The notes under the pieces: generated by a model
The model's database searches: none
The model's input: the letters and a program-made list of their open reading frames with translations, nothing else
Told to the model about the DNA's origin: nothing
Made by a program: the position numbers and the translations under genes
Part shown: one piece after another, positions 60,701 through 63,246 of the stretch
Layout of the letters: every line of letters starts with the position of its first letter
Position numbering within the stretch: position 1 is the first letter of the stretch
NCBI GenBank assembly: GCA_902797165.1
Contig: CADBRU010000009.1
Span: 62,001-126,000, forward strand
Source: an uncultured Elusimicrobium sp.
Lineage (GTDB): Bacteria; Elusimicrobiota; Elusimicrobia; Elusimicrobiales; Elusimicrobiaceae
DNA: 64,000 nucleotides
Direction of reading: 5' to 3'

Positions 60701-61117
60701 ATGAAAAAAACTTTTTCAGCCGTTGAAGTAGTCGTTGCCAGTTTAGTATTTATTGTGCTTTTGGGGCTTACCATACCCAAATTTACGGCGCTTATTCACA
60801 AAGCGCACGAAGGCAGTACTAAACATAATTTGGTGCGTTTGCGCACCGCCATTGCCGCTTATTACGGAGAGCATCAAGGCGTATATCCGACGGATGATTT
60901 ATCCAGTTTGATGCCTGCCTATATTGAAGCGATTCCGCAAGCGCAAGTGCCGGGGTTTGCCCCGTCTTCACATGTCTCGGCGGGTAATTACGAACAGGCT
61001 ATGACCGGAGAAGGTGGTTGGGCATATATAAATGATCCGGAAGATCCGCGTTTTGGAGACGTGTTTGTCAATACGCAAAAAGAAGACAGTTACGGCAAAG
61101 CGTGGAACACACATTAA
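60701..61117 (+). CDS. Divergent pseudopilin-like protein
   Basis: A 138-residue protein with a pilin-like helix, but the processing site is K-T|FSAVEVVV: Phe1 and Glu5 are present, and Thr replaces the Gly or Ala at -1. The body resembles GspG/PulG-type pseudopilins (LVRLRTAIAAYYGEHQGVYPTD; GGWAYIND). It lies nine bases after the M20 gene and 52 bases before the prepilin peptidase. Either this peptidase tolerates Thr at -1 or the protein stays anchored. Confidence 0.8.
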   Translation: MKKTFSAVEVVVASLVFIVLLGLTIPKFTALIHKAHEGSTKHNLVRLRTAIAAYYGEHQGVYPTDDLSSLMPAYIEAIPQAQVPGFAPSSHVSAGNYEQAMTGEGGWAYINDPEDPRFGDVFVNTQKEDSYGKAWNTH

Positions 61118-61121
61118 TTTT

Positions 61122-61150
61122 ATTTTCCCGCCTGTTTAACGGCGGGAAAT
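61122..61150 (+). terminator. Stem-loop between pseudopilin and prepilin peptidase
   Basis: TTTTCCCGCC/GGCGGGAAAT stem without a long T run; probably partial termination or an RNA-processing hairpin. Confidence 0.55.
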
Positions 61151-61169
61151 TTATGTACGAGGAGTAAAA

Positions 61170-61952
61170 ATGAATACATTGATTTTAATTTTTGCAGGTT
61201 TGTTCGGACTCATTTTTGGTAGTTTTTTAAATGTATGTATTTATCGCATTCCGCAAAACAAATCGATTATTTGGCCGCGTTCTTTCTGCCCTAAATGCGG
61301 CAAAACCATTGCTTGGTACGATAATATCCCGGTGCTTAGTTATATTATCTTATGGGGTAAGGGCCGCTGCTGCAAAGAGCCGATTTCCTGTCAATATCCG
61401 CTGGTGGAATTATTGACGGCGGCGCTCACGGTTTTATTTGTATGGCGCTATGGCATAACGGCGTGGACTTTTGTGGTTTTAGCGGCAGTATACAGTTTAA
61501 TTATTTCTTCCGTGATTGATTTGCAACTGATGATTATTCCAGACCGTTTTTCTATAGGACTGATTGTTTTTGGACTGGCGGTTTCTTTTCTAAATCCGAA
61601 TTTTGACGGAACGGCTTGGCATCGTTTCTTGCAAAGTTTACTCGGCGCCGGAGTAGGATTTTTCGGTACGTTAGCGGTGGCTGTTTTGGGTTGGTTTATG
61701 TTTAAGAAAGAAGCCATGGGCGGCGGTGATGTGAAATTGATGGGCGGCATCGGGGCCCTAGTAGGTTGGGAAGGTGTAATTACGACCACCATTTTTGCCT
61801 CCGTGGCCGGACTAATTTATTCTGTTTTCCTGATGATTTTTAAGGGCAAAAAAGGCGGGGATGCTATTCCGTTTGGCCCTTTTTTAAGTATCGGCGCGAT
61901 CATTAATTTGTTCTATTTGGTTAGTCCGTATATGCTGACCATTGAATTTTAA
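61170..61952 (+). CDS. pilD: Prepilin peptidase/N-methylase (PilD-like, A24)
   Basis: Cuts and methylates class III signal peptides. The 260-residue protein has FGSFLNVCIYRIP, the cytoplasmic Cys motif CPKC (Cys40, 43), IAWYDNIPVLSYI, and catalytic Asp motifs DLQLMIIPD (117-125) and GGGDVKLMG (Asp187). The second zinc pair is altered: GRCCKEPISC (Cys67, 68, 74) replaces the usual GxCRxC spacing. It is flanked by a pseudopilin and a canonical pilin and would serve all pilins in this window. Confidence 0.93.
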   Translation: MNTLILIFAGLFGLIFGSFLNVCIYRIPQNKSIIWPRSFCPKCGKTIAWYDNIPVLSYIILWGKGRCCKEPISCQYPLVELLTAALTVLFVWRYGITAWTFVVLAAVYSLIISSVIDLQLMIIPDRFSIGLIVFGLAVSFLNPNFDGTAWHRFLQSLLGAGVGFFGTLAVAVLGWFMFKKEAMGGGDVKLMGGIGALVGWEGVITTTIFASVAGLIYSVFLMIFKGKKGGDAIPFGPFLSIGAIINLFYLVSPYMLTIEF

Positions 61953-61972
61953 AAACAGGAGAAAGTAAATTT

Positions 61973-62413
61973 ATGAACAGGGCATTTACTTTAATTGAAC
62001 TACTCGTTGTAGTGCTGATTATCGGCATATTATCCGCTATTGCTTTGCCGCAATATAGTAAAGCAGTGGAAAAAGCACGCATGACGGAAGCGGTCATGGC
62101 AGTAGAAAAAGTTGCCCAAGCACAACAAATTTACAAAATGGCCAACGGTACTTTTACGCGAGACATTAATGATTTAGACATTGATTATGCAGTGGAAGAT
62201 GCCGATTACTGCGGTATTCATGCTAAAAAAACAAAACATTTTTTAATTACTGCTAGCAATTGTGTGGGAGACCAAGTGGATATTGCATTGGTTACCAAAT
62301 CAAACCATTACACATTGACAAAAACACTTGCCAATGCCAGAGATTGTATTTTATATGACGATGTAACCGACTACGAAGAAAAACTTTGTTTGGAATGGGA
62401 AGCGGGACACTAA
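61973..62413 (+). CDS. Type IV pilin-like protein (canonical paralog 5)
   Basis: A 146-residue pilin with MNRA|FTLIELLVVVLIIG, Glu5 and ALPQYSKAVEKARM. The body differs from the others: it lacks the ELSGG and YCTKYF blocks, has DYCGIHAKK, SNCVGDQ and a C-terminal pair (DCILYDDVTDYEEKLC). It sits 20 bases after pilD and is probably co-transcribed with it. A GGAG ribosome site precedes the ATG. Confidence 0.9.
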   Translation: MNRAFTLIELLVVVLIIGILSAIALPQYSKAVEKARMTEAVMAVEKVAQAQQIYKMANGTFTRDINDLDIDYAVEDADYCGIHAKKTKHFLITASNCVGDQVDIALVTKSNHYTLTKTLANARDCILYDDVTDYEEKLCLEWEAGH

Positions 62414-62416
62414 TTT

Positions 62417-62449
62417 AAAAACCCCGGGTAAGTACCCGGGGTATTTTTT
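62417..62449. terminator. Bidirectional terminator after the pilD-pilin unit
   Basis: ACCCCGGGTA/TACCCGGGGT stem with a 2-base loop, A run before and T run after. Confidence 0.9.
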
Positions 62450-62465: not shown

Positions 62466-62816
62466 TTACATAGCGCTTAAAAATGCTGTGATGCCGGCCA
62501 AGATGGCTCCCCCAAAGAAAATAATCAGCAGTATGGGTACCAGTGCTATCAGCACTGTTATCCAGCCAAATAGTCCGGCCCAATAAGCAAAACGGGCTGC
62601 CTCATCTATACGCTCTTGTGAGAGTAAATCTTGCACACGCAGTGATAAAATCAGCGCCGCCAGCGCCAGAGGAATCGTAAAAAATCCGGAAAAACAAGAT
62701 AAACAAACCGCCACTACCGCCAACACAAAATGTGTATTTATAGTGCGGGGTTTGTCTCCGCCTGTGTTTGTGCCGGTGATTTGCAATGATTGTTTGTTCT
62801 GTGTTTCTTCTGTCAT
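62466..62816 (-). CDS. CD225/dispanin-like small membrane protein
   Basis: A 116-residue protein with a polar N-terminal tail (about 1-28), a first helix (HFVLAVVAVCLSCFSGFF) and a second (WITVLIALVPILLIIFF) joined by SLRVQDLLSQERIDEAARFAYWA. This matches the layout of CD225/DUF4190 proteins, in which the middle amphipathic loop follows a Cys-containing first helix. Function in bacteria is unknown. AAGGAG precedes the ATG; a Cys/Gly microprotein gene lies just upstream. Confidence 0.78.
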   Translation of the reverse strand: MTEETQNKQSLQITGTNTGGDKPRTINTHFVLAVVAVCLSCFSGFFTIPLALAALILSLRVQDLLSQERIDEAARFAYWAGLFGWITVLIALVPILLIIFFGGAILAGITAFLSAM

Positions 62817-62848
62817 TTGTACGCTCCTTGTGTCATAAACTTATCGGC

Positions 62849-62890
62849 TTATTTCTTTTTGCCGCCGCCGCATCCACATCCACAACCCAT
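62849..62890 (-). CDS. 13-residue Cys/Gly-rich microprotein
   Basis: A 14-codon frame encodes MGCGCGCGGGKKK, with a full AAGGAGG exactly six bases before its ATG, as good a ribosome site as any in the window. It is too short for gene finders. The three Cys alternate with Gly and are followed by a lysine tail; a metal- or redox-binding role is possible. It lies 32 bases upstream of the CD225-like gene on the same strand, so the two are probably co-transcribed. Confidence 0.6.
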   Translation of the reverse strand: MGCGCGCGGGKKK

Positions 62891-62964
62891 AGGTGGCCTC
62901 CTTATTAATATAGTCATCCTGCCCCATTATTATATAAAATATAGGAAACTGGGAGACCTTTAAA

Positions 62965-63246
62965 ATGTTATTAGAAAAAGACAATATAGCACGTTGTACC
63001 CGCTCGACTAAAATACGCTTACGGGCAGACGAACAACAAAAATACGATAAAGAATTACAAGAATTATTCCATTGGGTGGACGAATTATCCAAGGTGGATA
63101 CTTCCGCTGTGCCGGAAAGTTCTCTTGCATACGCGGCTTATCTGCGTCCGGATGAACCGATTATGAACGAGGCTTTGGCAGACACATTGGTCGGAGCATT
63201 TAACGAACAAGAAGGCCATTGTGCCAAGGTAAAAAAGGTGTTGTAA
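62965..63246 (+). CDS. gatC: Asp-tRNA(Asn)/Glu-tRNA(Gln) amidotransferase subunit C
   Basis: A 93-residue stabilising subunit of the GatCAB amidotransferase, which corrects mischarged Glu-tRNA(Gln) and Asp-tRNA(Asn). The helical first half and the RPDEP…ADTLVGAFNEQEGHCAKVKKVL tail (family: 'ddvP…alanAPe…gfFkVPkVl') fit GatC. Only one base separates it from gatA. Cys11 near the start is unusual. Confidence 0.9.
   Translation: MLLEKDNIARCTRSTKIRLRADEQQKYDKELQELFHWVDELSKVDTSAVPESSLAYAAYLRPDEPIMNEALADTLVGAFNEQEGHCAKVKKVL

Follow-up and report, generated by a model that had tools for sequence, protein, structure and literature searches.

The DNA analysed here, a stretch of 64,000 nucleotides referred to as the window, holds on its minus strand a frame of 13 codons preceded by an ideal ribosome site. 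The locus raises the question of whether so short a frame is a gene and, if it is, whether its product acts alone or together with the CD225-like membrane protein encoded downstream.

The frame and its surroundings

The features of the locus are the following.

62849..62890, minus strand: microprotein ORF of 13 amino acids, MGCGCGCGGGKKK, stop codon TAA, with homologues in 12 of 66 same-genus genomes
62897..62903, minus strand: Shine-Dalgarno sequence AAGGAGG, 6 bases before the ATG; an AGGAGG/GGGGG-type site stands at the same place in all 12 peptide loci
62466..62816, minus strand: gene of a CD225-like membrane protein of 116 amino acids, downstream and in the same direction (Pfam PF04505, E 2e-6)
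62824..62829, minus strand: ribosome site AAGGAG of the CD225-like gene, read from the sequence
62929..62934, minus strand: TATAAT-like -10 box in the peptide/CD225 direction, overlapping a -10-like box for gatC on the other strand
62421..62442, minus strand: terminator-like hairpin after the CD225-like gene, usable both ways
62965..63246, plus strand: gatC, transcribed divergently and serving as the anchor of the locus in relatives (Pfam PF02686, E 1.1e-8)

The minus strand reads AAGGAGG-CCACCT-ATG GGT TGT GGA TGT GGA TGC GGC GGC GGC AAA AAG AAA TAA, and the ribosome site reported in the initial annotation, six bases before the ATG of a 13-residue frame, was thus confirmed at 62890-62849. Cysteine accounts for three of the 13 residues (positions 3, 5 and 7, as C-x-C-x-C). 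The whole window contains 707 ATG frames of 8-30 amino acids (361 + 346). A strong ribosome site, defined as AAGGAGG or a six-base part of it located 3-10 bases before the start, was present in three of them, and the full AAGGAGG in the MGCGCGCGGGKKK frame only. The arrangement C.C.C was found solely in this frame and in its own in-frame upstream extension. The extension, ATG-started from 62917, is open in just two of the 12 homologous loci (L001 and L004), and MGC is therefore considered the true start. The statement that gene callers miss frames this short holds only in part: one global catalogue predicted ORFs from 30 nucleotides upward (PMC11364881).

The CD225-like gene lies 32 bases beyond the peptide stop, and its product scored 28.3 bits against PF04505, narrowly above the curated cut-off of 27.1. 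The TATAAT-like -10 box was present in nearly all gatC-CD225 intergenic regions. The box at 62929..62934 was not among the results of a sigma-70 site search of the window, a -35 match being missing, and a promoter for the peptide and the CD225-like gene is thus presumed. The gatC-CD225 intergenic regions, in relatives as in the window (62926-62940), keep a TTTTATATAATAAT core, which gives a -10 box on both strands and is a possible symmetric divergent promoter.

Conservation within the genus

A CD225-like protein was detected in 50 of the 101 genomes searched, all belonging to the genus of the window (50 of its 61 members in that set), a genus of the Elusimicrobiaceae found mostly in animal guts. 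All CD225 upstream regions, comprising 50 loci and the G006 locus, were read with no residue filter and with a loose ribosome site as the only demand. Of the 50 loci with CD225, 48 had gatC in divergent orientation, at a distance of 1,139 bases in one of the 48, and in the remaining two the scan missed gatC. Between divergent gatC and the CD225-like gene, a peptide of 11-19 residues with the form MGCGCG...KKK was present in 12 of 66 same-genus genomes. The initial annotation had suggested a search of relatives for MGCGCG followed by lysines upstream of CD225-like genes, and such frames were indeed found at these 12 loci, 11 of them with CD225. The variants are as follows.

MGCGCGCGGGKKK: L001 (window), L006
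MGCGCGCGDGGKKK: L004
MGCGCGCGGDGKKK: L037
MGCGCGGGKKK: L003
MGCGCGCGKDKDIGKKK: L002, L005
MGCGCGKDKDIGKKK: L007, L008
MGCGCGQNKDDKDINKKK: L018, L021
MGCGCGNNNKDDKDIGKKK: L022

The number of cysteines is only two in six of the 12 carrier species (e.g. MGCGCGGGKKK). A pattern scan of the 66 genus genomes gave 13 with a match, namely the 12 locus carriers and G054; the match in the latter is located in a different place and has no ribosome site. A bare head pattern in L031 was dropped for the absence of a ribosome site. Over the phylum, the strict pattern was found in 12 of 340 genomes, all of the window's genus.

The head MGCGCG and the tail KKK-stop are invariant in the carriers, while the middle varies by whole codons. 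Seven ORF lengths (36-60 nt) occur over the 12 loci, each a multiple of three. Parsimony changes at codon positions 1, 2 and 3 of the ten shared codons numbered 0, 0 and 19 over the 12 loci, all synonymous; the figure of 19 is approximate, because the tree has one unresolved six-way node. The pattern scan itself demands the head and tail residues, whereas the unfiltered upstream reading did not. Both hallmarks of protein-coding sequence, an excess of synonymous change and whole-codon insertions or deletions, were thus present. The retention of the MGCGCGCGGGKKK frame in 12 species is beyond chance, and the frame is very probably a real, conserved microprotein gene of gut bacteria, which we infer to be translated. 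The proposal that a genuine microprotein is encoded ahead of a CD225-like gene is in this way supported by the 12 conserved loci.

In a gatC-gatA tree of 48 loci, carriers made up 12 of the 20 rows of one clade (100/100 support) and none of the 28 others. The presence of the peptide on this tree requires at least three gains or losses, and one gain with repeated loss therefore fits. Locus L020, which is sister to L018 and L021, shows by eye joint damage to its ribosome site, to one Cys-Gly stretch and to the tail frame, which is decay after selection ceased. A frame broken in close relatives while the ribosome site was kept had been named as evidence that would speak against the gene; no such case was found, and L020 lost both together.

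Proposed thiol chemistry and look-alikes in other lineages

Read from its residues, the product of this presumably translated and selected gene would be a minimal metal-thiolate or redox peptide with its lysine tail keeping it near polyanions, a proposal to which we give an even prospect of being correct. The microprotein gene would stand first in a transcription unit with the CD225-like gene, yet its product would act alone. The head, with cysteine at every second residue and glycine between, would offer flexible thiolate ligation to a soft metal ion (Zn, Fe or Cu) and might also, or alternatively, serve as a sacrificial or buffering thiol. The C-terminal lysines would tether the peptide to nucleic acid, the ribosome or the inner membrane surface. 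Its role might be local metal buffering or the blunting of oxidants in anaerobes, in the manner of a minimal metallothionein. The sequence-based support for this proposal is the conserved frame, head, tail and ribosome site, the independence from CD225 and the absence of leader structure; further support comes from look-alikes beside oxidant-defence genes and from the extended Cys-rich protein of a sister genus.

Lipidation, the other role proposed for the Cys-Gly alternation, is not supported by the peptide itself, in which, by eye, signal peptide and lipobox are absent and the cysteines at 3, 5 and 7 follow no hydrophobic segment. Metal binding, proposed alongside it, stays plausible as a prediction from the residues and is helped by the longer Cys-rich relatives and by the gene context in Omnitrophota.

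The longer relatives were found in a sister genus of the Elusimicrobiaceae. Genome G117 encodes MGCGCGCGGGKKEIKHSPNCKCTPQHHCGCFDGKPCKCN, of 39 amino acids, with a ribosome site and with its first 12 residues identical to those of the window peptide, and G118 encodes MGCGCNKKEIKHSPNCKCTPQNHCGCFDGKPCKCG, also with a ribosome site, at a locus different from that of G117. These 35- and 39-residue Cys-rich proteins begin with MGCGC (L092:1048-1847; L094:1495-1614), and the Cys-rich remainder looks metallothionein-like by eye. Neither matched Pfam or NCBIfam, and the 39-residue protein gave no match in PDB sequences or plasmids. As a query against 149 genomes of the order, it produced strong matches only in two sister-genus genomes, and weak ones in five others (E 0.04-0.1), of which one lies at a microprotein locus. 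The G118 gene is flanked on one side by a Zn_ribbon_2 gene (PF12674) and on the other by a DUF805-like gene, whose match is below cut-off.

Homology searches hardly detect this class, since peptides of such small size do not score. When 84,980 species genomes were scanned for MGCGCG..KKK-stop, 11 stretches matched: eight from this genus, two from Omnitrophota and one from Woesearchaeota. The last, MGCGCGGKKK (L077:6835-6867), has a ribosome site; among 60 related genomes searched, the frame was found in its own genome only, and it was not accepted as a family member, since with relatives absent from the other 59 it may be a chance match. The gene directly before it is presumably triosephosphate-isomerase-like. 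Viral contigs gave no matches.

The Omnitrophota family has the build M[GS]CG..C..K5-6AKKK, with 17-20 amino acids and a strong ribosome site. The combination of ribosome site, head and KKKAKKK tail was present in eight of 384 Omnitrophota genomes and in none with the reversed-pattern control. The bare head pattern, taken without tail or ribosome site, stood at chance level (5 of 384 genomes versus six reversed-pattern matches), and only the full architecture is informative in this phylum. Two bare-head matches, L089 and L091, were dropped as they have no ribosome site. One member, MGCGCGCGTKKKKKKAKKK, has AGGAGG before its start. Downstream of it lie genes for a rubredoxin (the model was applied to the homologue in L124), a fusion of redoxin and pterin dehydratase, a flavin reductase-like protein and, finally, a protein of the flavodiiron type. 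When the DNA preceding the flavodiiron gene was retrieved from eight more close relatives, five had a version of the peptide (MSCGCGCGTKKKKKKAKKK, MSCGRCGSMAKKKKKKAKKK, MGCGRCGPGAKKKKKKAKKK, MGCGRCGSGSKKKKKKAKKK and MSCGRCGSGAKRKKKKAKKK), two lacked it and in one the contig ended; the peptide was thus absent from G484 and G584, two of the nine testable close relatives. The eighth match, MGCGKCGAKKKKKAKKK in G525, has a prismane-family gene on one side and genes for superoxide reductase and a ferritin-like protein on the other. In G652, a superoxide reductase of the desulfoferrodoxin family directly follows the peptide, and in G514 and G634 a small membrane-like protein sits between the peptide and rubredoxin. 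Across the family, the neighbours are superoxide reductase, rubredoxin, redoxin/thiol peroxidase, flavodiiron, prismane and ferritin genes, a position beside oxygen-defence genes which indicates metal or redox chemistry and gives a functional lead, oxidant defence, for the class. The tail codons differ synonymously, save for one K-to-R change and the shorter tail of G525.

Some minor features of the Omnitrophota loci were also recorded. Past the stop, most of them (L121-L125, L080, L083 and L129, by eye) have a GC-rich hairpin, with a stem sequence that varies by species and a fold that recurs. In G525 (L129, minus strand, upstream of 1327), an in-frame TGA comes shortly after the expected ATG of the superoxide reductase gene, whose listed frame begins later at GTG; this is an error of assembly, gene decay or a genuinely late start. 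An Omnitrophota 40-mer, MGCGCGSKKDDKNKD-YECASCGKMSDTSKTCCGKPM-KKKK (L090:1495-1623), has the MGCGCG head and a lysine end; its linker KKDDKNKD resembles that of the Elusimicrobiaceae peptides.

Shared ancestry of the Elusimicrobiaceae and Omnitrophota peptides cannot be told from chains so short and of such low complexity, and the two may be convergent. Similar working and origin from one family are separate questions, and only similar working has support. We propose, somewhat more tentatively than the thiol chemistry itself, an unnamed bacterial class of 11-20 residues with a Cys-Gly head and a poly-lysine anchor, which would serve anaerobes as an iron-thiolate buffer or a minimal metallothionein, standing in the superoxide, peroxide and oxygen defence set in Omnitrophota and paired with CD225 in gut Elusimicrobiaceae. 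If so, a 13-residue chain would be a conserved gene product whose chemistry is legible in its residues and whose length is close to the minimum for gene-encoded proteins, and its thiol head and lysine tail are accessible to peptide synthesis and direct testing. A literature search, with subscription journals mostly outside its scope, found neither a description of the peptide nor the letters MGCGCG.

Bacterial metallothioneins have much longer chains, with about nine or more cysteines. Those of the SmtA/BmtA/PmtA type resemble the window peptide in being short, Cys-dense and of C-x-C spacing; the peptide differs in having 13 amino acids, three cysteines, no histidine and a lysine tail, and even the 35- and 39-residue relatives, in which model matches were sought, have no recognisable family match. 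Bacterial metallothioneins are tied to metal and oxidative stress (PMC11237414). Small Fe(Cys)4 proteins of the rubredoxin and desulfoferrodoxin type are approached by the Omnitrophota 40-mer, which shares the head and tail and has a core with a weak rubrerythrin/desulfoferrodoxin-like match below cut-offs; the window peptide has no such core.

Several points weigh against a metal-thiolate peptide. A 13-mer with three thiols, or two in half of the species, is expected to hold metal less tightly than a true metallothionein does, and it might have to dimerise. In the Elusimicrobiaceae the neighbour is a CD225 gene rather than a stress gene, the longer relatives lack database matches, and the look-alikes across phyla may be convergent. 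The peptide is also missing from two of the nine close Omnitrophota relatives and from eight of the 20 clade members.

A redox peptide working without metal, in which the C-x-C(-x-C) head forms a small dithiol/disulfide (scavenger or isomerase-like) and lysine lowers the thiol pKa, would suit the C-x-C spacing and the oxidant-defence neighbours in Omnitrophota. It is considered unlikely, as the Elusimicrobiaceae neighbour is not an oxidant-defence gene and a free scavenging thiol needs no conserved order of residues. A C-x-x-C motif was present in the first membrane helix of 18 of the 19 CD225-like proteins from the carrier clade and absent from that of all 31 others, which would also favour such a peptide, but this motif tracks the clade and not the peptide, being kept in seven of the eight peptide-less loci.

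Relation to the CD225-like gene

The same apparent operon was seen in 11 of the 12 loci, as the initial annotation had it for the window, but the link is not obligate and each gene occurs alone. In G006, the order is gatC, the microprotein with its ribosome site, a GC-rich hairpin with a T run and a convergent pilin-like gene; no CD225 was found at this locus or elsewhere in the genome, which is 78% complete. Conversely, the microprotein is absent from 39 of the 50 CD225 loci, and eight of these 39 belong to the carrier clade. Loci with both genes appear to transcribe them as one unit, neither gene needing the other.

This separation bears on a regulatory role, in which ribosomes on the Cys and Lys codons of an upstream ORF would tune the CD225-like gene and the peptide itself would be inert. 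The ORF does lie 31-85 bases upstream of CD225 in 11 loci, and Cys-rich regulatory uORFs are known in mycobacteria; the microprotein resembles these and attenuation leaders in being a very short ORF that contains several Cys codons and precedes another gene, and differs in having no attenuator structure, no amino-acid-related target and retention without the downstream gene. When the 12 leaders were folded and compared with shuffles, 11 stood at shuffle level (z-scores from -0.87 to 1.03), and the exception, L037 (z = -2.20), contains its own downstream terminator. No terminator was found between the ORF and the CD225 gene in the window spacer. Thus neither an alternative RNA fold nor an ORF occurring only with its target gene, both expected of attenuation leaders, was observed. 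The separation in both directions and the lack of leader structure argue against a leader peptide for CD225, which is quite improbable; moreover, the CD225-like gene is unconnected to Cys or Lys supply, and the head and tail residues are retained though the middle varies in length.

A partner subunit of the CD225-like protein, with lysines on lipid head groups and cysteines on membrane-face thiols, is very improbable: the shared operon and the extra membrane-helix cysteine of the carrier-clade CD225 proteins are what such a partnership predicts, as is the tail C-x-x-C of CD225 in all three loci of one peptide-less clade (L025, L045 and L047), but G006 carries the peptide without CD225, most CD225 loci have no peptide, and the tail is Cys-free in the other five peptide-less clade members. 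The idea that cysteines in the CD225 tail offset the loss of the peptide was accordingly rejected, being true for the one three-locus clade and false for the other five. The CD225 or dispanin (IFITM-like) family is represented by the neighbour, which passes the PF04505 cut-off; the microprotein is no CD225 protein, and the pairing is confined to one clade of one genus. The initial observation is right and its interpretation partly right: the frame has more to offer as a gene than was first proposed, and less as a partner of CD225.

An RNA or DNA element, such as a two-tier G-quadruplex from the GGN TGY repeats that make the head codons G-rich, or a chance frame, deserves almost no credence, as it leaves unexplained the retention of KKK-stop, the whole-codon length changes, the 0/0/19 pattern and the use of different codons for the same residues in Omnitrophota.

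Some CD225 proteins of other clades have a Cys-rich N-terminal tail instead of the helix motif, with up to five cysteines. Next to the locus, positions 60701-62413 of the window hold genes for type IV pilin-like proteins and for a prepilin peptidase (PF06750, PF01478), which converge on the CD225 gene.
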